Made by a program: the position numbers and the translations under genes. DNA of 64,000 nt from Mumia sp. zg.B17 (GTDB taxonomy: Bacteria; Actinomycetota; Actinomycetes; Propionibacteriales; Nocardioidaceae). The stretch spans positions 186,001-250,000 of the forward strand of contig NZ_JAHWCI010000001.1 of the NCBI RefSeq assembly GCF_019550915.1, written 5' to 3'. The notes beneath the pieces were generated by a model. The model saw nothing but the letters and a program-made list of their open reading frames with translations. It ran no database searches and was not told where the DNA came from. Of the stretch, positions 3,930 to 26,059 are shown one piece after another (the stretch's first letter is position 1; each line of letters opens with the position of its first letter).

Positions 3930-5039
3930 TCAGAGCAGGTCGTCACGACCGGCGTCGCGCCAGTGCGCGACCAGCGACTTGACCTCCTGGGCGTGCGTCG
4001 TCGTCGTGACCAGGACGGCGTCGGGGGTGTCGACGACCACCACGTCCTCGACACCCAGCACCGACACCGTGCGCCGGTCCGTGACCACCAGTCCACTGCT
4101 GCGGACCGAGGCGACCAGGGCGGGGTCGCCGAGCGCCGCCGTCCGGCCCTCCGTGCCGGACAGCACCTCCGCCACGGCGGCAAAGTCGCCGACGTCGGTC
4201 CAGCCGAAGGTGCCGGGGACGATGGCGATGCCACCGACGGCCGCGACCGGTTCGGCGATCGCGTGATCGATCGCGATCTTGGTGAGCGTCGGCCAGACCT
4301 CGTCGAGGGTCGCCGCCCGGGCGGGCCCGTCCCACGCGTCGGCGATCACGTCCAGGCCCTCGCGCATCCGGGGCTGCTGGTGACTCAGGTGCTCCAGGAG
4401 GACGTCGGCGCGAGCGACGAACATCCCCGCGTTCCACCGGAACCGCCCGGAGGCGAGGTACTCGCGCGCGGAGTCGAGGTCCGGCTTCTCCACGAAGCGG
4501 GTCACTACGCTGCCGTCCGGTGCGCCCGGCACCCCCTCGAGGGCGGCACCGCTCTCGATGTAGCCGTAGGCCGTCGAGGGGGCGGTCGGGGCGATCCCGA
4601 TCGTGGTCACGTAGCCCGCGGCGGCCGCGGCGGCCGCCTGGCGGACGGCGTCGGCGAACTCCTCCGCACCTGCGACGAGGTGATCGGCAGCGAACGAGGC
4701 GACGATCGCGTCGGGGTCGCGTCGTGCGATCAGCGCGGTCATCAGACCGATCGCCGGCATCGAGTCGCGGGGTCCGGGCTCGGCGACCAGGTTGGCCTCC
4801 CCAAGCTCGGGCAGCTGGGCGGCCACCGCATCACGGTGTCGCACGCCGGTAACGACGTTCACACCGCCGGGACCGACGAGCGGGACCAAGCGGTCGTACG
4901 TCTGCTGGAGAAGCGAACGGCCGGTTCCGGTCAGGTCGAGCAGAAACTTCGGGTGAGAGGTGCGCGACACGGGCCAGAGCCGTGTTCCCGCGCCGCCCGC
5001 GGGGACGATCGCCTGCAACGACGGGACAGCGTCGGACAT
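3930..5039 (-). CDS. manC: Mannose-1-phosphate guanylyltransferase
   Basis: 369 aa, the short single-domain type without the C-terminal isomerase domain. It makes GDP-mannose from mannose-1-phosphate and GTP. It shows VPAGGAGTRLWPVSR (nucleotide-binding loop), HPKFLLDL, FVEKPDLDSAREYL, RWNAGMFV and FGWTDVGDF. AGAGGAG lies 5 nt before the ATG at 5039, and a minus-strand TACCCT (5077-5072) is a likely -10. In this window GDP-mannose is the substrate for gmd-fcl at 20.6-22.6 kb. No phosphomannomutase gene is present here. Confidence 0.93.
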   Translation of the reverse strand: MSDAVPSLQAIVPAGGAGTRLWPVSRTSHPKFLLDLTGTGRSLLQQTYDRLVPLVGPGGVNVVTGVRHRDAVAAQLPELGEANLVAEPGPRDSMPAIGLMTALIARRDPDAIVASFAADHLVAGAEEFADAVRQAAAAAAAGYVTTIGIAPTAPSTAYGYIESGAALEGVPGAPDGSVVTRFVEKPDLDSAREYLASGRFRWNAGMFVARADVLLEHLSHQQPRMREGLDVIADAWDGPARAATLDEVWPTLTKIAIDHAIAEPVAAVGGIAIVPGTFGWTDVGDFAAVAEVLSGTEGRTAALGDPALVASVRSSGLVVTDRRTVSVLGVEDVVVVDTPDAVLVTTTTHAQEVKSLVAHWRDAGRDDLL

Positions 5040-5146
5040 GGTGCTCCTCTGGGACGGACGGTGATCGGTCCAGGGTAGGGGGGTCAGGCCCTGAGCGTGC
5101 CTGGCCCGGTCTGGACGCGTTCCCCCGGCAGGTACATCGCTTTGCG

Positions 5147-5796
5147 ATGTCCCCGACCACCCCGAGCCCGCGCGCTCGCCCCACGGTCGAGGAGCACCCG
5201 CCCGCAGCAACCCAGATGCGGCGCCCGAGATCCAAGGGCTGCGCGCCGTCGCAGTCGGGCTGGTGGTGATCTTCCACCTGTGGCCGAACCGGTTGCCGGG
5301 CGGTTACCACGGGGTCGACGTCTTCTTCGTCATCTCGGGGTACCTGGTGCTCGCGGCGTCGCTGGTCGCGGTGCTGATCTGGGTGCCGCGGATGCTGTGG
5401 CAGCAGTTCGTCCGGGACGTGTGGAAGCCCGCGATCGACGCCAAGGTCCCGATCGTCGCCCTCCGCGACAATCCCGAAGGCGGCCGGACGCCGGAGTCCG
5501 ACCCGAACATCTGCCTGGTCAAGGTGGGTGCCGAGGGTGTCGACACATGTGCGCTGTCGCGGCAGGAGTCCGTCGACAGCCTCTTCGACCCGTACGAGGA
5601 GGCGGCGAAGAGGGCTGGCCGCAAGCGCGCCTTCCACCTGGACATGACGCGCTGGTACTGCGACGACGAGGTGTGCCCAACTGTGATCGGCGGCGCCAAC
5701 GTCTACCGCGACAGCAACCACGTCACGATCACCTACGCTCGCACCCTGGCCCCTTACTTCAGGCAGGCGCTGACCAGGGCCGGGCTGCTCGACTAG
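5147..5796 (+). pseudogene. Decayed acyltransferase-3/SGNH protein (frameshift plus large internal deletion)
   Basis: This is a shrunken relative of the intact gene at 5857. An ATG at 5147 starts a plausible N-terminus ([17 protein letters not shown]) in one frame. The homologous continuation [19 protein letters not shown] is in another frame, so a frameshift lies near 5200-5235. The frame runs through [13 protein letters not shown] and then jumps to a C-terminal SGNH segment ([29 protein letters not shown]). About nine membrane helices and the SGNH nucleophile region are missing. The last 50 residues match the neighbour's RDEVCEAAVGG...[10 protein letters not shown]. No ATG or GTG start lies in the acyltransferase frame before 5263. 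A short expressed remnant from GTG 5263 cannot be excluded. Confidence 0.8.
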
Positions 5797-5856: not shown

Positions 5857-7983
5857 ATGGCTGTCGACAGTGCTCAGCGGGTCGCTGGCACGGCGAGTGA
5901 GCTGGTGCCGACGCGCGGCACTCGCGCGGACATCCAGGCCCTCCGCGCCGTCGCGGTGACTCTGGTCGTCGTCTACCACGTCTGGCCGTCGTCGTTGAGC
6001 GGCGGCTTTGTCGGAGTCGACGTCTTCTTCGTCATCTCCGGGTTCCTCATCACCTCTCACCTGCTCCGCAGACCCCCGCGCACCGGCCGGGACCTCGCGG
6101 TGTTCTGGTCGCGGCGGATCCGAAGGCTGCTGCCGGCCTCCTTGCTGGTACTGACATGCACGCTCGTCGCGTCCCGACTGGTGGCACCAGAGACGCAGTG
6201 GGAGAACACCGCACGACAGGCAGGTGCTGCCGCCCTGTACCTCGCCAACTGGTTGCTTGCCAGCGATTCCGTCGACTATCTCGCGGCCGAGAATGCGGCG
6301 ACGCCAGTGCAGCACTTCTGGTCACTATCCGTCGAGGAGCAGTTCTACGCCTTCTGGCCCGTGCTCCTCCTCCTCCTGACCGCGCTCGCCGTCCGTCTTC
6401 GCGCTCGCCAGCTGGCGCCGAAGGTGCTGCCCGTTGGCCTCGGTGGGGTCGTTCTGGTCTCGTTCGCGTGGTCCGTCTACGCGACGGCGACCGAACCTGC
6501 GTCGGCGTACTTCGTCACCCCGACGCGGGTCTGGGAGCTGGGCGTCGGCGCGTTGGTCGCGGTCGCCGTCGGGCGGGCACGCACCGGTCGTCTCATCCGC
6601 TCTGCGAGCCTGCGGGTGGTGATTGCCTTCGTCGGCTTGGCAATCGTCGTCGTCGTGGCGATGGTCTACACACGTGAGACGCCGTTCCCTGGCTGGTATG
6701 CCGCGGTGCCCGTCCTCGCGACCGCTTTGGTCATCGTCGCGGACGCGCCCGTGGGCAGCACCCTGGGTTCCGCCCTCGCCAACCGGCCCGTGCAGTGGCT
6801 GGGTGGTATCTCGTACTCGGTCTACTTGTGGCACTGGCCACTCGTGGTGCTGGTCCCGTACGCCACCGGGGCGCGCGAGCTGAATGCACTCACCGCCGTC
6901 ATCGTCGTTCTCACCACCCTGGTTCTTGCCGACCTGACCAAGCGGTATGTGGAGGATCGGTTTCGCGGTGACCGGAAGGGCACCTCGTTGAGGACGACGT
7001 ACCTCATGGCGGTAATCGGGATGGTGGCCGTCGTCGGGCTGGCTGCGGCACAGGTCGCCGAGGTCGATCGCCGCCAGTCGAGTTCGGAGGCTGCGCTCGC
7101 GCGCGCCATGGCCTCGGACCCGGCGTGCTTCGGCGCGGCGGCGCTCGACGATCCTGAACGATGCGGAAGGACAACCTCGACACCCGTCGTGCCGACCCCC
7201 GCGGCAGCGGCTGAGGACAAGTCAAACGCCTACGCGAAGGTGTCGGGCGGCAAGGACTGCTGGTCGTACCTCCCGGACTTCCCGGTCGTCACCTGCACCT
7301 TCGGCGAGCGTGACGCCGACGTCTCCGTCGCGCTTGTCGGCAACTCGCACGCCGGTCAATGGTTGCCCGCTCTCGAGGAGATCGCGGCGGCTCGGGGCTG
7401 GCGGATCACCACCTACTTGGCGTCGCGGTGCGCGTACGCTGACGTCAACCAACGATTCGACACAGAGTCCCAGTCGAGGCGCTGCCGCGAGTGGGGGAAG
7501 AAGGTCACCGATCGGCTCGCGGCCGGGTACGACCTCGTGGTGATGTCGAACCGCATGTCCGCCGGCCTCGCGAACACGGAGGACGACGACGCTCCAGCGG
7601 CATACCGTGAGGGCTACGCCGCGGTCCTGCGGCAGATCAGTCGCTCGGGCGCTCCCACGGTGGTCGTGCGTGATACGCCCGCACCTGGCCGGTCGATCCC
7701 AGACTGCCTCGCGGCATCCCCCGACGACTTCAGAGTGTGCGAGGGGAAGCGTTCCGACTGGTTGCCCGAGGAACCCGCGGTCGACGCAGCGAGCGAGATC
7801 GGCACGGCGTCTGTCGCCGACCTGACCGACCACATCTGTCGCGACGAGGTCTGCGAAGCGGCAGTCGGTGGAGTTCCGGTCTACTTCGACGGCTCACATC
7901 TCACAGCGACTTATGCACGGACGCTCGCGCCGTACCTCGATCCGGTGCTCGTCGCGGCCCTTGCGCAGGGTCGTGCGGACTAG
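5857..7983 (+). CDS. Acyltransferase-3 family O-acetylase with C-terminal SGNH domain (OafA-like)
   Basis: 708 aa. The N-terminal part (about residues 25-390) is a polytopic membrane domain opening with DIQALRAVAVTLVVVYHVWP, then [14 protein letters not shown] and SLSVEEQFYAFWP, typical of acyltransferase-3 proteins that move acetyl groups across the membrane. The C-terminal periplasmic-side SGNH domain (about 470-700) has LVGNSHAGQW, a Cys-rich middle and a closing [16 protein letters not shown]. The likely role is O-acetylation or acylation of a surface polysaccharide. It follows the decayed paralogue by 60 bp. The ATG at 5857 has only a weak upstream GAGG. Confidence 0.88.
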   Translation: MAVDSAQRVAGTASELVPTRGTRADIQALRAVAVTLVVVYHVWPSSLSGGFVGVDVFFVISGFLITSHLLRRPPRTGRDLAVFWSRRIRRLLPASLLVLTCTLVASRLVAPETQWENTARQAGAAALYLANWLLASDSVDYLAAENAATPVQHFWSLSVEEQFYAFWPVLLLLLTALAVRLRARQLAPKVLPVGLGGVVLVSFAWSVYATATEPASAYFVTPTRVWELGVGALVAVAVGRARTGRLIRSASLRVVIAFVGLAIVVVVAMVYTRETPFPGWYAAVPVLATALVIVADAPVGSTLGSALANRPVQWLGGISYSVYLWHWPLVVLVPYATGARELNALTAVIVVLTTLVLADLTKRYVEDRFRGDRKGTSLRTTYLMAVIGMVAVVGLAAAQVAEVDRRQSSSEAALARAMASDPACFGAAALDDPERCGRTTSTPVVPTPAAAAEDKSNAYAKVSGGKDCWSYLPDFPVVTCTFGERDADVSVALVGNSHAGQWLPALEEIAAARGWRITTYLASRCAYADVNQRFDTESQSRRCREWGKKVTDRLAAGYDLVVMSNRMSAGLANTEDDDAPAAYREGYAAVLRQISRSGAPTVVVRDTPAPGRSIPDCLAASPDDFRVCEGKRSDWLPEEPAVDAASEIGTASVADLTDHICRDEVCEAAVGGVPVYFDGSHLTATYARTLAPYLDPVLVAALAQGRAD

Positions 7984-14330: not shown

Positions 14331-15371
14331 GTGCTGAGCGGCGAAGTTGAGCGGTCCGGCCCGTCGACAGTTGCGATCTTCGGCAGCTGTATTACCCGCG
14401 ATGCCTTCAACTCTCGCTTCAACCCTGACTACAAGCGGCACTACACCTGCGTGCTGATGCAGAATCAGTCGTCTCTCATCAGCCTGATGTCTCAACCGGT
14501 GGATCTGGCGGAGGACGACTACACGCCGGGCTCCTCCGAGTACGACCGCTGGAACGTGCGGACAGATACCAGCAAAGAGTTTCTCGGCGCGCTCTTCGAT
14601 GCCTCCCCGGGCTACCTAGTCCTCGACTTCTTCGGCGACGTGCACTTCGGCATACTCCAGTTGCCCGGTGGCTCGGCGGTGACCAACAACCGCTGGAAGC
14701 TGTGGCCGACCCCGTTCTATCGACGAATGACGGAGTCCGGTGACGCAGTCACGATGAGGGTGCAGGACGACCCGGACGCATACATGTCGCGATGGCGAGA
14801 GGCGTTCGACGCGTTCATGGCGATGGTTCGCCGAGAACTGCCCAACACCGTGGTGGTCCTCCATCGAGGCCGCAACACCGACCGCCTCTGGCTTCCGGAC
14901 AAGGCGCGGACAGTGTCGCTACGCAAGCACCGCAAAGTGACCAAGATTGACGTCGAACTGTATGACGCCTGCTGGCGGATGTTCGACGACTACGCGGCCG
15001 CGGCTCACGGCGTCGAGGTGATCGATCTGACCGAGGAGGACTTTCCCACCTTCGACGATCACCCGTGGGGCCCGTTCTACGTCCACTACTCGATGGACTA
15101 CTACGGACGCTTCCTCGGCGAACTCCACCAGATCCACCTCGCCCGATCCGGCGTCGACCCCGCCAAGCTCGCCGACATCGCCACTTTCGGGGCGGCTACG
15201 GCCGCCCGAAAGGCCGACCAGTTGGAGGCCGCGTTGGAGCGCGAGCAAGAACGCGTACGTGCGTCGGAGAAGCGGGCTGCTCGGGGCACGGTCAGCAACG
15301 CGATACAGCGCCGGGCACTTCGCGGCGTTCGGCGACTGCGGAGCTCCCAGCACCCCGTCCGACGCCCATGA
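14331..15371 (+). CDS. DUF6270-type protein, function unknown
   Basis: 346 aa. It starts VAIFGSCITRDAFNSRF, the GSC(I/V)TRD signature I associate with DUF6270. Other conserved-looking stretches are YLVLDFFGD, VVLHRGRNTDRLW, and a C-terminal HPWGPFYVHYSMDYYGRFL. The short Gly-Ser-Cys nucleophile-like loop and late Asp/His residues suggest an SGNH-like hydrolase fold, but that is inference. These proteins sit in polysaccharide loci. GTG 14331 is chosen because GGAGGTGA ends 4 nt before it. The last ~45 residues are an Arg/Glu/Ala-rich probable coiled coil. It is divergent from the GT2-TagF fusion. A related domain recurs at the N-terminus of the GT11 protein at 18044. Confidence 0.72.
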   Translation: MLSGEVERSGPSTVAIFGSCITRDAFNSRFNPDYKRHYTCVLMQNQSSLISLMSQPVDLAEDDYTPGSSEYDRWNVRTDTSKEFLGALFDASPGYLVLDFFGDVHFGILQLPGGSAVTNNRWKLWPTPFYRRMTESGDAVTMRVQDDPDAYMSRWREAFDAFMAMVRRELPNTVVVLHRGRNTDRLWLPDKARTVSLRKHRKVTKIDVELYDACWRMFDDYAAAAHGVEVIDLTEEDFPTFDDHPWGPFYVHYSMDYYGRFLGELHQIHLARSGVDPAKLADIATFGAATAARKADQLEAALEREQERVRASEKRAARGTVSNAIQRRALRGVRRLRSSQHPVRRP

Positions 15372-17266: not shown

Positions 17267-17688
17267 TGCTGCGGACGATGATGAAGTCCAAGATCCACCG
17301 CGCCACGGTGACACAGGCCGACCTGCACTACGTCGGGTCGGTGACCGTCGACACCGACCTGCTCGAGGCCGCCGACATCCTGCCCGGTGAGCTCGTCCAC
17401 ATCGTCGACATCGACAACGGCGCGCGGCTCGAGACGTACGCGATCGCCGGCGAGCGCGGCTCGGGCGTGATCGGCATCAACGGCGCTGCCGCCCGGCTGG
17501 TGCACCCTGGCGACCTCGTCATCCTGATCGCGTACGCACAGGTGACCGATGCCGAGGCCCGAGACCTCCAGCCCCGCGTGGTGTTCGTCGACACCGAGAA
17601 CCGCATCGTCGGGACCGGTTCCGACCCCGCCGAGCCGGTCCCCGGCACCGCCACCGTGCGCGGAGATCGCACTGCCCCGACCTGCTGA
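17266..17688 (+). CDS. panD: Aspartate 1-decarboxylase proenzyme
   Basis: 140 aa. It makes beta-alanine for PanC. The self-cleavage site Gly24-Ser25 lies in [10 protein letters not shown], where Ser25 becomes the pyruvoyl group. Further family features are [33 protein letters not shown] and [10 protein letters not shown]. Pyruvoyl-dependent PanD has this length in actinobacteria. The usual next gene, coaX, follows only as a decayed copy. A second, decayed panD end is found at 25158-25281. Confidence 0.96.
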
Positions 17689-17699
17689 GTACGCGATTC

Positions 17700-18013
17700 G
17701 TCAGATGGAGCCGTGTCTTCGACGGCGTCGAGCTGACGGCGATCCTGCACGAGATGCCCCAAATGGGCGGCGTGATCTCGGCCGGCATCGAGATCTCGCT
17801 CGAGGCGCTCGCCCGGCGAGGGCCGGAGCTGCGGTCGGTCGAGCTCGTACGGCCTCGGGGTGTGATCGCGAGAACCCCGTCGAGGCCGTCCAGTCCGGGA
17901 TGGTGTTCGGGTTCGCGGGACTCGTCGATGGAAACGTGGCGCGGATGATCCCGGCGCGCGAGCCAGACCTCATGTTCATCGGCCTGCGCACCGTGGCCGA
18001 GCGCACCTCCTGA
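17700..18013 (+). pseudogene. Decayed coaX copy (type III pantothenate kinase)
   Basis: This relic keeps four pieces of CoaX in the right order. A short VFDGVEL piece and ILHEM match the first third. VISAGIEISLEALARRG to LVRPRGVIA matches the middle. QSGMVFGFAGLVDG and EPDLMFIGLRTVA match the end. At least three internal deletions have removed the ATP-binding and pantothenate-binding parts. One base is missing near 17866 compared with the intact gene, so the last two pieces are in another frame. Differences from the intact coaX at 25289 include many synonymous changes, so this is not a recent exact copy. Confidence 0.88.
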
Positions 18014-18043: not shown

Positions 18044-20368
18044 TCACGCGCGGTGGCTCTCGGCCCCCCAGATGACCCAGGATCGGTCCTCGACCGTCCG
18101 GACGAGCGTGTTCGGGGCGTCGGCCAGCATCGCCGAGGTCGCGGCGAAGCGTCCGACGGAGGCGATCACGACCGGGCACAAGGACATGAGGTAGGAGTCC
18201 CAGACGGCATCGAAGTGCCAGTTCCAATCGATGGTGAGGACCTCCCCGTCGGCCAGGTCGAGCCCGTACTCGTCCGCGTGCAGGCTGACGAACGTCGGGT
18301 CATCGGAGAACACCGCGATGTTCAGGGTCTGGCCCTGCGTCCACACCGTCTCGCGCACGTACTCGATGGCGCGCTTGTACTGCGAGGCGCCCGCGTGCCA
18401 GTCGGGGAAGCCCCCCTGCACGTAGTCCCCGCGGCGCACGTGAACCGCGAGCGTCGGTGAGGACTCGAGGAACCGCCTCACGCGCGCGTTCTCGCCGCTG
18501 AGCTCGTCGGGGCGCAGGTGGGAGTAGCTGAAGCTCTTGCGCAAGGCCTTGCGCCCACGGCCGTCGAACGGGGCGATCATGATCGGGTGGATGAACATCG
18601 GCACGGGCGGAAGGTCACGGGAGATCAGGTCCCGCTGGATTGCGGCCGTCTTCATCATCACCACGGGGAAGTCGGGTTTGGCCTCGACGATCCGCACACC
18701 GGTCGGATAGCCCCACTGGGCGTAGCCCATCAGCTCGTGAAGGCCCAGCTTGATCCACGTCAGCGCGTTGCGGACGGCGTCATCGGGCACGGAGATCTCC
18801 CGGATGGCGGCGACCCACGAGTCGTGGAGCGGTCGTGAGATCAACCGGGTGATGCGGCGCTCCTCAAGCCACGGAGCGAGTTGGGAGGCGACGAACCCGT
18901 TGTGGACTCGGACGTAGGAGTAGTGGAAGTCGTGGAGGTAGATGTTCTTCCCGGCGGAGGCGCAGTCACTGGCGAACCCCGCGATGATCTGGACCTGGTC
19001 CATCATTCCGCCGTTGACCCGGACGACACGTGTCGCGGGGTCGAAGAGGAACGACAGGTCGACCTTGGCCGCCAGCGGCGGCGGCACCGCGCCGTCGGGG
19101 CCCACGACGACCAGGTTCTCGGCGTCGAGGAGCTCCTCCCAGTCCAGCCAAGCGCAACTCGCGACGAGCTCGAGCGGCGACCGTACGGCGACGACCAGCG
19201 CGTCCGTGTGTCCGCGACGGGCCCGTTCCAGATAGAGCGGCCAGGATCCGAGCGCACGGGACACGGTGCCGAGTGAGAGCGTCGTGCTCGCGTCGGCGAC
19301 GCCGTGGGCGTCGAACTCCTCACCTTGGTCGGCGAGGGAACGCGTGATGGTGCCGTCGGCGCCGAACCGTAGGTGCCCCCGGCGATCGACGTAGACGACG
19401 TCGTCGAGGTCGGGAATCCGCCGGGGCAGAGCGACGGCGCACCCCGGGTTCGCGCGCAAGGCCTCCAGGCCCCGCCGGAACAGGTGCGCGGTCTCCCGAG
19501 CGGGTGCGGATCGCTGCTGTCGAGCAGCCGCCGCGACACAGCGCTGTACCTTCTCCGGGTCGCTGCCGGAGGACTGGAGGTAGACGAGTGCGATCAGGTC
19601 GTCCCAGGTGGCATCGGCAGAGCCGCTCAGCCTTTCCGCGACCTCGGCAGCGTCGACGGAAGCTCCTTCGGTCACCCGGGAGACGATCGTGTCGGCGACG
19701 ACCGGCAAGGTGGAGAGAGAGGCTGCGGACCGGTGGAACACCGTGCCCAGGGCGAACGGGCGGCGTCGAGGTTGCGTCGAGCACAGCCGAACGATGTCGC
19801 GCTCGAGGTCGGAGGCCATCGACTTGTCGAACACGAACGCGTCCGGACCGACTGGAAAGTGCCGCAGCGCGACGTCGGAGACCCGGCAGGAGGTCTTCGT
19901 GATGAAGTAGTCGTCCAGCTCGGCGAGGACCCTCGCCTGCTCGGCGGTCGCGACGGTCGGCGCAGGCTCTAGCTTGTCGTCGAGCCAGAGCCGCGACGCG
20001 TGCGAGCGTACGAGGATGATGCGGTCGGCGGGGAAGTGCTCGAGGCAGGTGGCGACGAAGGCGTCGTACCGTCGGCGCCATCGGCGGGACGACTCCATCT
20101 CGCCGATGCTCGCGAGCGCCGTGGTGTTGTCGACGACGAGGTAGTCGGCGTGCGCGTCGGCGAGCTGCGCCGACAGCCGGAGCTGCCGCTTCTTGCCGAA
20201 CCTGACGGGGGAGAACCCCCGGATCACCGGCAGCGCTTTGAACCAGTCGTGCGTGAGCATGTCGATGGTCCCGGCAAACTTGTCGCCGACCGGCAGCAGG
20301 ACAGTGCCTCTCGGGATGACCGGCAGGTCGGCACCGTCCGTCCGCTTGGAAGCTGCCAGCGCACCCAC
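18044..20368 (-). CDS. DUF6270-like domain fused to a GT11-like (alpha-1,2-fucosyltransferase family) domain
   Basis: 774 aa from a GTG at 20368 with AAGGAG 6 nt upstream (an upstream TTG at 20392 has no ribosome site). Residues ~20-220 resemble the DUF6270 protein at 14331: [32 protein letters not shown] and [12 protein letters not shown]. The GSC motif itself is not seen. The C-terminal ~300 residues look like GT11: [15 protein letters not shown] in place of the usual GGLGNQ start, and [11 protein letters not shown] (the HxRRxD-type motif) near residue 645, then [10 protein letters not shown]. The usual terminal SxSWW region is replaced. It is divergent from gmd-fcl, which would make the donor GDP-L-fucose. 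Fucosyl transfer is inferred from motif and context. Confidence 0.72.
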
Positions 20369-20568
20369 AGACCTCTCCTTCACATCGTCCAAACGGCGGC
20401 ACGAGGCGCGCCTGGCGACAGGACTCGCCGTGGGTCGAAGACTACAGAGGCGGCCGTCAAAGCGCGGAGATCGCGCGGAACATCTTGATCGCGACTCTCA
20501 GCGATGTAGTCTGTGCTGCTCTGGTAGGTGCCAGGGATGCCTGGCGCCGCGCGAGGCAAGGAACCCCA
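20369..20568. promoter_or_regulatory. 200-bp divergent control region between the GT11 fusion and gmd
   Basis: It holds start signals in both directions. On the right, AAGGA sits 7 nt before the gmd TTG start. On the left, the GT11 start has AAGGAG. Its sequence is less GC-rich than its surroundings (around 20480-20530), fitting promoters, but no clear -35/-10 pair could be assigned. Confidence 0.4.
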
Positions 20569-21600
20569 TTGAGCAAGCGCGCATTCATCACCGGCATTAC
20601 CGGCCAGGACGGGTCGTATCTCGCCGAGCTCCTGCTCGCCAAGGGATACGAGGTGCATGGCCTGATCCGTCGCGCGTCGACCTTCAACACGGCGCGGATC
20701 GACCACCTCTACGTCGATCCCCACGACCCGGACGCCAAGCTCTTCCTCCACTACGGCGATCTCGGTGACGGAGCCCGCCTGGTGACGCTGCTGAGCGAGG
20801 TGGACCCCGACGAGGTCTACAACCTGGCCGCACAGTCCCACGTACGGGTCTCGTTCGACGAGCCGGAGCACACCGCAGACACCACAGGGACCGGCACCAT
20901 CCGGCTGCTGGAGGCCGTGCGCATGGCCGGCATCGACACCCGCTTCTACCAGGCCTCCTCCTCGGAGCTGTACGGCTCGACTCCGCCCCCGCAGAACGAG
21001 GACACGCCGTTCCACCCGCGCTCCCCGTACGCCGCGGCCAAGCTCTACAGCTACTGGATCACCAAGAACTACCGCGAGGCGTACGACATGTACGCGGTGA
21101 ACGGGATCCTGTTCAACCACGAGTCGCCTCGTCGAGGTGAGACCTTTGTGACGCGCAAGATCACCCGGGCCGTCGCCGCGATCAAGGCCGGCAAGCAGGA
21201 GCACCTCTACATGGGCAACCTGGACGCCATCCGCGACTGGGGCTACGCGGCGGAGTACGTCGAGGGGATGTGGCGGATGCTGCAGGTCGACGAGCCCGAC
21301 GACTACGTGCTCGCCACCGGCACCGGCCTGACTGTGCGGGAGTTCCTCGAGATCTCCTTCTCCCACGCCGGGCTGACCTGGACGGACCACGTCCGCTTCG
21401 ACGAGCGCTACCTGCGTCCCTCCGAGGTCGACGCCCTCATCGGTGACGGGTCAAAGGCGGCCGAGAAGCTGGGCTGGAAGCCGACGATCGACGGGTATGC
21501 TCTGGCCAAGCTCATGGTGGATGCAGACATCGAGGCGTTGGAGTGCGCTGGAACACCGTGGATCGACAAGGTCGACCTGCCGTCCTGGAGGATCGCATGA
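20569..21600 (+). CDS. gmd: GDP-mannose 4,6-dehydratase
   Basis: 343 aa, starting at TTG with AAGGA 7 nt upstream. It converts GDP-mannose to GDP-4-keto-6-deoxymannose. Signatures are [18 protein letters not shown] (NADP-binding), [50 protein letters not shown] (Tyr-Lys pair) and [13 protein letters not shown]. Its stop overlaps the fcl ATG (ATGA). manC at 3930 supplies the substrate. Confidence 0.97.
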
Positions 21601-22619
21601 GCAGCGCGACGAGCGAGCGGGCCGCCCTGCAGAGGGTTGTCGACGACAGGGACCAGGTCGCGTACACGCCAGGACCGCTGGACCGCGACGCGACCTTCTA
21701 CGTGGCGGGCCACCGGGGTCTCGTGGGCTCGGCGATCTGGCGCAAGCTCGAGTCGGAGGGGTTCACAAACCTCGTCGGCAGGAGCTCGTCCGAGCTCGAT
21801 CTGCTGGACCGCGACGCGACGTTCAGGGTCATCGACGTGATGAAACCGAGATACCTCGTGCTGGCCGCCGCCAAGGTGGGAGGGATCCTGGCCAATTCCA
21901 CCTACCCCGTGGACTTCCTCAGCGACAACCTGCGGATCCAGGGCAACGTGCTCGATGCGGCGCTCGCCCATGGTGTCGAGCGGGTCCTCTTCCTCGGGTC
22001 GTCGTGCATATACCCCAAGTACGCCGAGCAGCCGATCATCGAGGACGCACTGCTGACCGGCCACCTCGAGCCGACCAACGACGCCTACGCGATCGCGAAG
22101 ATCGCCGGCATCCTTCAGATCCAGGCCGTACGCCGACAATACGGACTACCGTGGATCTCGGCGATGCCGACGAACTTGTACGGCCCGAACGACAACTTCT
22201 CGCCGACCGGCTCCCACGTGCTGCCCGCCCTGATCCGGCGCTACGACGAGGCCGTCCAGGCAGGGCGGGACACCGTGACCAACTGGGGCACGGGCAACCC
22301 GCGGCGCGAGTTCCTCCACTCCGACGACATGGCCGACGCCTGCCTCCACCTGCTCGAGCACTATGACGGGCCTCAGCAGGTCAACGTCGGCACGGGATCG
22401 GACGTCACGATCCGCGAGATCGCCGACACGATCGCGGAGGTCGTCGGGTTCGAGGGCACGACGGAGTGGGACACCACCAAGCCCGACGGGACCCCTCAGA
22501 AGCTGCTCGACGTCTCCAAGCTCGCGGCGGCCGGCTGGACCTCGAAGATCGGTCTTCAGGAAGGCCTTGAACGTACCGTTGCGTGGTATCGGGAGCACGT
22601 CCTCGACCTCAGGCGCTGA
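21597..22619 (+). CDS. fcl: GDP-L-fucose synthase
   Basis: 340 aa. It epimerises and reduces the Gmd product to GDP-L-fucose. The N-terminus has [17 protein letters not shown] (NADP-binding), then [37 protein letters not shown] (catalytic Tyr-Lys) and [19 protein letters not shown]. The first ~35 residues before the Rossmann motif are longer than usual. An internal start is possible, but the ATGA overlap with gmd supports this one. The pair gmd-fcl forms a complete GDP-mannose to GDP-fucose path. Confidence 0.96.
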
Positions 22620-22672: not shown

Positions 22673-24907
22673 TCACCCCTTGCTGCGGGTGTAGAGCGCC
22701 TCGCCCCAGCCCTTGGACGTCATCACGGCATCGCGGAAGACGAGACCTGCCTCGGCGAGCAGGTTGGTGACCTCGAGGAAGGTGCAACCTCCCTCGTAGA
22801 GGGGTTCTGGCGCGACCTCGGCGAGGACGGCGTCGACCTGGGTCAGGAGGTCCGGCGCGCCCTGGAGGACCTTGAACTCTGCTCCCTGGACGTCGAGCAG
22901 GATGACGTTGTAATCGGCGGCCTCGGGACGCTCGGAGACGATGTCGTCGAGCCGCTCGGTCACCAGCTCCACCTTCTCCTCGAAGGTGACGCTCGGGTAC
23001 TCGGTGGCGTGGCGTCCCGCCTCGAACATGCTCGAGGAAGCACCGCCGTTCGACGAGACGTGGAAGGTCACCGCATCGCCGGTAGTGTCGGACAGCAGCG
23101 CCTGCCGGATGACGTGAGGACGATGGGGATCGAGCCGCTGGCGCACGCGTTCGGCGAGGGCGGGGATCGCCTCGACGTAGAGCAGCGGGCCCGTCGTCCG
23201 TGCTTGGTATTCCGGATACTCCTGGCCGGAGTTGGCGCCGACATGGATGAGTCCCCGGATCGGGACGCCGAACCTGGCGCAGCCGTCGATGACGTTCAGC
23301 TCCGTCCCCGGCGAGGTCGTCACGGGAGCGGGCGGCATGGCCTCGGTGGGAGGCGCGGGTCGCGTTGCCAGAGGCCGGGTCGAGCCGGATGACGCTGAGC
23401 CCCTCCGTGCCTTCCGCCTGAGCCGACGCCTCACGCCACGCGCGATCCGGCGGGATGCGCGCGTGACACGGGTGGCCTGCGGCGTCGGGGCGGAGGGGAT
23501 CGCCGGGCCGTCTCCGACGACGGCGAACACCCGCAGGTCGGCGAGGTGCAGCGCGGTGTTGAGGGGGTTGATGATCCGGACGTAGCGCGCGGCGATGTCC
23601 GGGACCTCGAGCGATGCCTCCTGCCAGCTGCCACCGGGGAGCTTGCCGTCCTTGAAGAGGGGGAAGACCCGCTTTGTCCCCCGAGGCCCGGTGAGCTCGA
23701 CGAAGATGTGGCGTGCGCGGTCCTGACGCATGTCGCGGCGGTTGGTCAGCTCGATGCGGCGCACCGTCTTCGCAGTGCCGAGGTCCACGCGGATCGACTG
23801 TCCCGGACCGAAGCCGGTGTGGAAGAAGTAGTTGTCCCGTGGCTCAATGGTCCCGATCCGGCTGGTCCGGTCGTACGCCGAGCTCAGCGTGTAGGGCCGG
23901 CCTGCCGCGACCTCGACCAGCTCGCCAAGACTTCCGGGCTTGCGTCCTCCGAGCCTGCTGAGCGTCTGGAGGCTCCGCATGGTGAGAGCGAGGACCGACT
24001 TCAGCTCGTCCTCGGTGGCGGTCGTCGTGGACTCGTACTCCTCGTGGTAGCGCTGGGCGTCCTCGAGCATCTTGACGCGCGACTCGAGCGGCCGCTGGTA
24101 GTCGCACCAGGCGTCGGAGAGGAACATCGGCGGGACGCGCGGCACGTTCCGGCCCACGTCGAGCGGGTGCGGGAGCAGCGGGGTGCCGGCTCTCGGGGTG
24201 AACCGGTCGTTCCGGACCAGGGTGAGCTCGAGGACCTGGGGGATCCGGATGTCGGTCCCGGGTACCTCAAAGTCGCCGCAGCAGTTGTTGGGGTGGGCGT
24301 GCACCGTGGTGAAGCTCTTCGCGAGCTTCCTGAAGAACGGCGCGATGGCTCCGCTGAGGATCGGCTCGTCGAGCATCTTGCCGAGGTTGTGGACCTCGAG
24401 GACGATCATCCGGAACCGGGCGAGCGTCTCGTCGGAGGTGCCGAGGAGGTTGCGGTACTCGGCACCCTCGATGTCGATCTGCAGGAGCAGGTCGCCCTCC
24501 GAGCCGTGCTCGTCGACCCAGTCGTCCAGGCTGATGTTGTCGGTTCCGGGCACGACGTCCAGCCACTTCTTGGCGAACGTCTGCTTGCCCTCGCGCAGCG
24601 GGGTCACGAACTCGTCGACGTCGCACGAGAAGTCGACCATGTGGGCTGCGATGCCGTAGTTGTCGGTCAGGTAGTCCTCGAAGTACTTGATCCGGTTCAC
24701 GCCCGGCGAGAAGCAGGCGGCGATCCCGTCGAGATCGTCCGGCACGAGATAGGCGCCGTCGATCTCGCCGCCGACTCGGATCAGCGGTGTCGCCGACGCC
24801 TTCGGCTTGAGGATCTCGAAGACCTCGAGGATCTCGCTGGTGGATGCGGGCCGTGGGGCGAGCTTCCTGTCGAGCTCGACGCCGAAGAAGCTTGCAGTCG
24901 TGACCAT
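22673..24907 (-). CDS. FkbM-like methyltransferase - discoidin-like domain - FkbM methyltransferase
   Basis: 744 aa in three parts. Residues ~40-260 look like a divergent FkbM-type domain (LLLQIDIEGAEYRNLLG near 140, then VLEVHNLG). Residues ~335-470 read like an F5/8 type C (discoidin) carbohydrate-binding fold (IRVDLGTAKTVRRIELTNRR, ARYVRIINPLNTALHLADL). A basic Arg/Ala/Pro linker follows. About 535-744 form a classic FkbM methyltransferase (LIHVGANSGQEYPEYQ, LLYVEAIPALAERV, ILLDVQGAEFKVLQGAPDLL). It probably O-methylates a surface sugar and may hold the glycan through the middle domain. AAGGG lies before the ATG. It converges on fcl. Confidence 0.8.
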   Translation of the reverse strand: MVTTASFFGVELDRKLAPRPASTSEILEVFEILKPKASATPLIRVGGEIDGAYLVPDDLDGIAACFSPGVNRIKYFEDYLTDNYGIAAHMVDFSCDVDEFVTPLREGKQTFAKKWLDVVPGTDNISLDDWVDEHGSEGDLLLQIDIEGAEYRNLLGTSDETLARFRMIVLEVHNLGKMLDEPILSGAIAPFFRKLAKSFTTVHAHPNNCCGDFEVPGTDIRIPQVLELTLVRNDRFTPRAGTPLLPHPLDVGRNVPRVPPMFLSDAWCDYQRPLESRVKMLEDAQRYHEEYESTTTATEDELKSVLALTMRSLQTLSRLGGRKPGSLGELVEVAAGRPYTLSSAYDRTSRIGTIEPRDNYFFHTGFGPGQSIRVDLGTAKTVRRIELTNRRDMRQDRARHIFVELTGPRGTKRVFPLFKDGKLPGGSWQEASLEVPDIAARYVRIINPLNTALHLADLRVFAVVGDGPAIPSAPTPQATRVTRASRRIARGVRRRLRRKARRGSASSGSTRPLATRPAPPTEAMPPAPVTTSPGTELNVIDGCARFGVPIRGLIHVGANSGQEYPEYQARTTGPLLYVEAIPALAERVRQRLDPHRPHVIRQALLSDTTGDAVTFHVSSNGGASSSMFEAGRHATEYPSVTFEEKVELVTERLDDIVSERPEAADYNVILLDVQGAEFKVLQGAPDLLTQVDAVLAEVAPEPLYEGGCTFLEVTNLLAEAGLVFRDAVMTSKGWGEALYTRSKG

Positions 24908-25157: not shown

Positions 25158-25281
25158 GTCCGACGACACCGGCAACCGCATCGTCGGCATCGGGTCCGAA
25201 CCCGCAGAGCCGGTGCCCGGCAGCGGCACGGTGCGCGGCGATGTCCTCGCCGACGCAAATGCCGGGCGCGCTGCGCCATGA
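25158..25281 (+). pseudogene. C-terminal relic of panD
   Basis: The frame DTGNRIVGIGSEPAEPVP then GSGTVRGDV matches the end of PanD ([26 protein letters not shown]), with different synonymous codons. About 100 upstream codons, including the Gly-Ser cleavage site, are gone. It ends at TGA 25279-25281, 7 bp before the intact coaX start, which is where panD is expected to sit. It is therefore the right-hand counterpart of the decayed coaX at 17700. Confidence 0.87.
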
Positions 25282-25288
25282 TGAGCAC

Positions 25289-26059
25289 GTGAGTCTCCTC
25301 TGCCTGGACGTCCGCAACAACCACACGGTCGTCGGCGCGTTCGACGGCGACCGTCTGGTGGGGAGCTGGCGGGTCGCCTCCCTCGACACGCGGACCGCGG
25401 ACGAGTGGCAGCTCCTGCTCCGCGGGCTGCTCGAGCAGTGCGACGCCGGCCCTGTGGAGGCCGTGGCGCTGTCCTGCACGGTCCCGGCGGTGCTGCACGA
25501 GATGCGCCTGCTGCTGGAGCGGCACTACGACGACTGCGTGGTGTCCATCGTGGAGCCCGGGACGCGCACCGGGGTGGCGATCCTGATGGACAACCCCCGC
25601 GAGGTCGGAGCCGACAGGATCGTCAACGCCGCGGCCGTGGGAGTGTTGTATGCCGGTCGGCCGTGCGTCGTCGTCGACGTCGGGACCGCCACCACCTTCG
25701 ACGTGGTCGACGCTCAGGGACGCTACGTCGGCGGCGCGATCTCGGCTGGCATCGAGATCTCGCTCGAGGCGCTGGCCCGCCGCGGCGCACAGCTGCGGTC
25801 GGTCGAGCTGGTGCGCCCGCGCGGCGTGATCGCGAAGAACACCGTCGAGGCGATCCAGTCGGGGATGGTGTTCGGGTTTGCCGGTCTCGTCGACGGCATC
25901 GTGACGCGGATGATCCGCGCGCTCGGCGGCGACGACGTTGCCGTGGTGGCCACCGGGAGGAACGCCGACGTGGTTCTCGGCGAGTGCACCACGGTCACCG
26001 CGCACGAACCCGACCTGACCCTGATCGGGCTGCGGATCGTCGCGTCCCGGAACGCCTGA
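25289..26059 (+). CDS. coaX: Type III pantothenate kinase
   Basis: 256 aa. It phosphorylates pantothenate, the first step of CoA synthesis. Features are the N-terminal phosphate-loop region CLDVRNNHTVVGAFDGD, the GADRIVNAAA motif with its catalytic Asp, VVDVGTATTFDVV and GGAISAGIEISLEAL. The usual Thr in DVxNT is Asn here (Asn11), the one notable deviation. GTG 25289 fits the family N-terminus. Its normal operon partner panD is 7.6 kb away, with only a panD relic directly upstream. Which promoter drives it is unclear. Confidence 0.93.
   Translation: MSLLCLDVRNNHTVVGAFDGDRLVGSWRVASLDTRTADEWQLLLRGLLEQCDAGPVEAVALSCTVPAVLHEMRLLLERHYDDCVVSIVEPGTRTGVAILMDNPREVGADRIVNAAAVGVLYAGRPCVVVDVGTATTFDVVDAQGRYVGGAISAGIEISLEALARRGAQLRSVELVRPRGVIAKNTVEAIQSGMVFGFAGLVDGIVTRMIRALGGDDVAVVATGRNADVVLGECTTVTAHEPDLTLIGLRIVASRNA

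Follow-up and report, generated by a model that had tools for sequence, protein, structure and literature searches.

The locus examined here raises the question of why a DUF6270-like domain should be fused to a GT11-like fucosyltransferase domain beside genes for GDP-L-fucose synthesis, and of what the resulting protein does. The window, i.e. the whole stretch of DNA that was analyzed, comprised 64,000 nucleotides of Mumia sp. zg.B17 (contig NZ_JAHWCI010000001.1, positions 186,001 to 250,000), and positions are counted from its first letter. The features are collected in Table 1.

The open reading frame as listed spanned 18044-20392 on the minus strand and began with TTG at 20392 (782 aa). A GTG at 20368 is immediately preceded by the Shine-Dalgarno sequence AAGGAGAGG and opens a frame of 774 codons; the boundaries (18044-20368) and the length (774 aa) given in a preliminary description of this DNA were retained. 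Residues are numbered according to the 774-aa form, and computed outputs for the 782-aa form run 8 higher. Third-position GC was 0.78-0.95 in each of eight eighths of the frame. There was thus no sign of a frameshift or a dead segment, and all three segments of the protein look coding; the gene is intact. A search for transmembrane segments in the protein yielded no clear one. Neither the N- nor the C-terminal domain passes its Pfam cut-off, the middle region had no Pfam or NCBIfam matches, and AlphaFold2 confidence was low in the N-terminal and middle regions.

Table 1. Features of the fusion gene and its surroundings (window positions; residues in the 774-aa numbering)
Feature	Coordinates	Strand	Residues	Basis
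Gene for the 774-aa fusion protein	18044..20368	minus		Single frame, Shine-Dalgarno AAGGAGAGG, high third-position GC
Degenerate DUF6270/SGNH-like domain	19748..20329	minus	ca. 14-207	HHalign, collinear secondary structure; catalytic motifs lost
Middle region: predicted helices, then a small alpha/beta stretch	19043..19747	minus	ca. 208-442	AlphaFold2 secondary structure, low pLDDT
GT11-like GT-B fucosyltransferase domain	18047..19042	minus	ca. 443-774	61-GT11 alignment, GT11 HMM, fold match
GGMMDQ, equivalent to GT11 GGLGNQ	18995..19012	minus		GT11 alignment
HVRRGDY	18422..18442	minus	643-649	H, R, R, G, D in 61/61 aligned GT11s, Y in 97%
VGRFAAT, replacing conserved GT11 NSSFSWW	18137..18157	minus		GT11 alignment
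Free DUF6270 protein, predicted SGNH/GDSL fold	14337..15371	plus		PF19786 E 1e-22; AlphaFold2 pLDDT 87; PDB fold matches
gmd, GDP-mannose 4,6-dehydratase	20569..21600	plus		PF16363 E 1e-138
fcl, GDP-L-fucose synthase	21600..22619	plus		Epimerase E 1.5e-59; gmd-fcl pairs annotated in plasmid matches
FkbM methyltransferase protein with F5/8 type C domain	22673..24907	minus		PF05050 E 1e-21, two stretches; PF00754 E 1.9e-6
Left direct-repeat block: panD 3' end and decayed coaX remnant	17583..17959	plus		83.5%/85% identity to right block
Right direct-repeat block: panD 3' remnant and part of intact coaX	25158..25922	plus		Direct repeat; panD-coaX contiguous in four genus-mates
manC-like GDP-mannose pyrophosphorylase, precursor supply	3930..5210	minus		PF00483 E 2e-34 and PF22640

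The C-terminal third of the protein is a complete, very divergent GT11-type domain with a GT-B fucosyltransferase fold. With Pfam PF01531 (Glyco_transf_11) it scored 16.6 bits (E 0.005), below the gathering cut-off of 23.9, and a custom HMM built from the GT11s of relatives matched it at E 4e-19 over 78 positions. Sixty-one GT11 proteins, with alignment identities to the fusion of 18-26%, were collected by an alignment-guided genome scan. In all 61, GG..Q and HxRRGD fell in register with the fusion, also when the full-length protein was the query; the C-terminal HxRRxD fucosyltransferase motif that had been reported for this gene was thereby confirmed as HVRRGDY. Motifs were compared at positions that were at least 85% conserved among the 61 proteins, and the fusion retains GG..Q, HVRRGDY, FSDD, Asp724, Leu727-Met728, Cys731, and Phe741. 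In GGMMDQ, the GG and the Q of GGLGNQ are retained, whereas the invariant G and N are altered. The SxSWW end is indeed replaced, as had been noted earlier (VGRFAAT for NSSFSWW).

Residues 443-502 and 603-752 were for the most part modelled by AlphaFold2 at a pLDDT of ca. 81-91 and 75-96, respectively, with weaker values between. A GT-B fold in the C-terminal half had been set beforehand as a test by the preliminary description, and the best 12 matches in a fold search of the PDB were all GT-B fucosyltransferases (FUT8, AtFUT1, or POFUT1; best E 5e-5), with POFUT2 lower down. The TM-scores of these matches were modest because the query was the whole 782-residue model. A profile search of PDB sequences was discarded; its matches were mostly meaningless, and FUT8 appeared at E 0.18 only.

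With the GT11 alpha-1,2-fucosyltransferases of CAZy (FutC, WbsJ, WbiQ), the fusion shares the GG..Q start, HxRRGDY, FSDD, the D..LM..C core, and the GT-B fold; unlike them, it lies below the Pfam cut-off, has both NSSFSWW and GGLGN replaced, and carries ca. 440 added N-terminal residues. FUT8 (GT23), AtFUT1 (GT37), and POFUT1/2 (GT65/68) provide the best PDB folds and carry the GDP-fucose-site His and Arg in the corresponding motif, whereas the fusion is only 11-15% identical to them and is devoid of their extra domains.

The state of the donor pocket was considered in the light of published work. FUT8 binds the guanosine through His363 and Asp453; its pyrophosphate contacts are Arg365, Lys369, and Ser469, together with the backbone of Gly221/Cys222 (PMC7033129). 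WbsJ, an enzyme of GT11, depends critically on the first Arg of HxRRxD (PMC4202792). The HxR of the fusion is the counterpart of FUT8 His363 and Arg365, both of which are retained, and Asp724 is probably the counterpart of Asp453, the two being equated by motif order. The counterpart of Ser469 has been replaced by a Gly-Arg pair. From the GDP-fucose contact residues kept and lost, the simplest reading suggested is a donor pocket that works but is altered. Because NSSFSWW, with the pyrophosphate contact of FUT8 Ser469, is replaced and GGLGNQ is altered, the fusion could be inactive or take another donor; a specificity new to GT11 is possible.

The genomic setting bears on the choice of donor. 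The fusion gene, gmd, fcl, and the FkbM gene are a recently acquired cassette. In the four genus-mates examined, panD is adjacent to coaX, with no fusion, gmd, fcl, or FkbM gene at the site; a search of four whole genus-mate genomes gave no match to gmd. The gmd in the window was the only copy found in its own genome. Two direct repeats (17583-17667 vs. 25158-25242, 83.5% identity; 17766-17959 vs. 25730-25922, 85% identity) are consistent with acquisition of the cassette by recombination next to the housekeeping pair panD/coaX. As previously described, gmd-fcl is divergent from and adjacent to the fusion gene, and manC lies ca. 13 kb upstream. Since the cassette combines the synthesis of GDP-fucose with a single glycosyltransferase and a single FkbM methyltransferase, fucose is the expected donor by parsimony. 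The product of the FkbM gene (22673-24907), in which two FkbM stretches are combined with a discoidin (F5/8 type C) domain, has an unusual build for a sugar O-methyltransferase.

Two other views of the C-terminal domain were weighed against this background. It is unlikely that the domain, as a member of the GT11 clan, takes a GDP-sugar different from GDP-fucose or transfers fucose in an unusual linkage or to an unusual acceptor class. The replaced residues of NSSFSWW and GGLGNQ would suit such an enzyme, as would GT11 domain swaps that put acceptor specificity in C-terminal motifs (PMC4202792); however, the sole gmd-fcl pair adjoins the gene within the acquired cassette, and the GDP-fucose-binding arginine and histidine are retained. 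It is improbable that the protein is a non-catalytic scaffold, i.e. two pseudo-enzyme domains that organize a glycan assembly complex. An intact HxRRGDY, FSDD, and Asp/Leu-Met/Cys core would hardly be expected once donor binding had been lost, and the genome yielded no further GT11-type gene to serve the fucose pathway in a search confined to that type; the scaffold would nevertheless account for the loss of conserved motifs in both halves and for a singleton that has diverged fast.

The N-terminal ca. 200 residues are a remote homologue of DUF6270. When the fusion was used to search its own genome, the sole other match was the free DUF6270 protein encoded at 14331 (40% over 46 residues, E 0.016). 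Pfam PF19786 returned nothing for the fusion at E ≤ 1, hence below the gathering cut-off, and DUF6270 profiles applied with HMMER gave marginal values (E 0.08-0.13). These were too weak for a homology call, and HHalign with controls was used instead. A 17-sequence DUF6270 profile (A7) matched the fusion N-terminus with a probability of 87%, an E of 3.8e-6, and a score of 44.9 over 109 columns, the core of the match being residues 66-174. The fusion N-terminus ranked 1/120; the best scores among the controls were 26 for 80 shuffles and 29 for 39 real protein segments. A second DUF6270 profile (A2) likewise placed the fusion N-terminus first, and the C-terminal part of the fusion was not matched by the DUF6270 profile. 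The AlphaFold2 model of residues 1-207 was of low confidence; its strands and helices, predicted without DUF6270 sequences in the input, follow the same order as those of the SGNH-type free protein. The homology is well supported by the controlled HHalign comparison and this independent secondary-structure order, and the earlier remark that the N-terminal ca. 200 residues resemble the 14331 protein stands on the same two results rather than on two confidently predicted structures set side by side. When the fusion was aligned by MAFFT with GT11 and DUF6270 proteins together, the DUF6270 part was misplaced, and this alignment was set aside.

That this region is unrelated to DUF6270 and resembles it by chance is very improbable. 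Such a view can draw on the HMMER values and on the weak model of this region, but the rank of the fusion among the HHalign controls and the strand/helix order recovered in an independent prediction argue against it.

The free DUF6270 protein was modelled using 17 sequences (mean pLDDT 87) and is confidently predicted to have an SGNH/GDSL esterase-acyltransferase fold. Its best 50 PDB matches were nearly all SGNH esterases or acyltransferases, and its matches included Est2A (an acetyl xylan esterase), PAF acetylhydrolase, sialate O-acetylesterase, and PatB, along with the periplasmic domain of an LPS acetyltransferase and CE2 enzymes. Matches to viral structures agree with the SGNH/GDSL fold. 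The invariants of DUF6270 are Gly-Ser-Cys, Arg, Asp, two more Asp, His, Trp, and His, with the motifs GSCxxRD and HxWG...HY. The predicted fold and the invariant Ser/His motifs suggest that the family is an esterase/acyltransferase-like acyl-ester enzyme. A search of the literature collection available retrieved no paper on DUF6270.

GDKFAGT stands in the fusion where DUF6270 has GSCxxRD, and the HPWGPFYVHY of the free protein is altered such that the tryptophan and the second (HY) histidine are missing. Most of the ten DUF6270 invariants are absent (the serine, cysteine, arginine, tryptophan, and second histidine among them); the first histidine may be retained, one residue out of register. 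With the serine motif and the HY histidine gone, the fused copy probably serves in binding or docking and not in catalysis. Three roles had been proposed for DUF6270 proteins, namely esterase, acyltransferase, and acceptor-binding module. For the free protein, the predicted SGNH fold and Ser/His motifs favor the first two; the fused copy, for the reasons just given, fits only the third.

The likeness of the fused copy to DUF6270 (PF19786, e.g. the 14331 protein) thus extends to remote homology over ca. 110 residues and the order of secondary structure, whereas the fused copy is without GSCxxRD and HY, is shorter, and is joined to another domain. SGNH/GDSL enzymes such as Est2A, sialate O-acetylesterase, PatB, and CE2 have their fold in common with the free DUF6270 protein; unlike them, the fused copy is without Ser and His. 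For CE2, PDB entry 2w9x indicates by its title that such a pocket can bind carbohydrate non-catalytically too.

It could be argued that both domains are catalytic and that the N-terminal one, by means of a rearranged active site, still acylates or deacylates the transferred or accepting sugar. Two observations point in that direction: the SGNH fold predicted for free DUF6270, which is close to that of O-acetylesterases and O-acetyltransferases (e.g. PatB and the periplasmic domain of an LPS acetyltransferase), and a histidine near the H242 position of DUF6270 in the fused copy. The change of GSCxxRD to GDKFAGT, the loss of the HY histidine and the conserved tryptophan, and the reduced length of the fused domain oppose it, and the proposal is regarded as quite improbable.

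The preferred explanation as a whole, to which a probability of roughly 0.6 was assigned, is a GDP-fucose-dependent fucosyltransferase fused to a dead SGNH-type binding or docking module. The protein would be a cytoplasmic, metal-independent, inverting fucosyltransferase of the GT11/GT23/GT37/GT65/GT68 superfamily. Its donor would be GDP-L-fucose, made by the neighboring gmd and fcl from manC-derived GDP-mannose, and the fucose would be added to a surface-glycan precursor of the cell. The cassette's FkbM protein may afterwards O-methylate the fucosylated product. The N-terminal domain would be descended from a DUF6270 acyl enzyme of SGNH fold, would have lost the catalytic serine motif and histidine, and would now bind the acceptor glycan or dock to the assembly machinery non-catalytically. 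A bolder version is tentative and, on balance, doubtful: a retired SGNH acyl enzyme turned acceptor-recognition module, with a donor pocket re-worked (Gly and Arg for phosphate-binding serines) toward a specificity undescribed in GT11.

The full-length architecture is known from one genome. No relative of the full-length protein was found among the contigs of 84,980 species genomes or in plasmids, and phages gave one weak match, to the GT part only. Among 299 genomes of the family and 248 of the order, weak matches only were found besides the gene itself; one of these (L003) was checked and proved to be a flavoprotein region. The absence of full-length relatives from these collections, and with it of any sign of conservation, counts against the preferred explanation, as do the low AlphaFold2 confidence in the N-terminal and middle regions and the Pfam scores of both domains. 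None of 80 GT11 loci from elsewhere (flanks up to 6 kb) had a DUF6270 gene. With the fusion confined to one genome and no such gene at these loci, the earlier suggestion that DUF6270 proteins share an acceptor with the glycosyltransferase is conjectural. A DUF1796-GT11 fusion from an uncultured bacterium (L104:3804-5492) is a second case of a hydrolase-like domain joined in front of GT11; unlike the fusion, its N-terminal domain has no detectable profile similarity to DUF6270, and it was rejected as a relative of that family.

The free DUF6270 gene is common to the genus, in which it adjoins manC and pan genes. In the window, it and the cassette stand in separate blocks with DUF2520-like, panC, and panD genes between them. 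Since the free gene is genus-wide and the cassette was acquired, the fusion and the 14331 protein are not of one acquired unit. On a Rossellomorea plasmid, a DUF6270 gene lies between a GT4 gene and an exporter/LCP block. In a Listeria record (L170:7995-9446), the DUF6270 protein gene adjoins ethanolamine utilisation genes and a tie to glycans is not obvious, so DUF6270 is not always tied to them.

With a predicted SGNH fold, clear Ser/His motifs, and a genus-fixed place by the manC and pan genes, DUF6270 lends itself to direct tests as a glycan acyl-modifying enzyme. By joining an SGNH-type fold to a fucosyltransferase, the fusion amounts to a natural experiment; it suggests that a glycosyltransferase may take over its acceptor recognition from a dead esterase. 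This idea has a limited practical reach, because the architecture occurs in a single genome.

The window as a whole is a surface-glycan region. It encodes a GT61 protein, manC, an AT3-SGNH acyltransferase, and CDP-glycerol glycerophosphotransferase-type proteins, and further a UDP-glucose/GDP-mannose dehydrogenase family protein and a WsaF-like protein. The start of the AT3 acyltransferase is partly duplicated upstream of the intact AT3-SGNH gene (5227-5345 vs. 5929-6047, 73% identity), and this partial duplicate is perhaps the remnant of a second copy.
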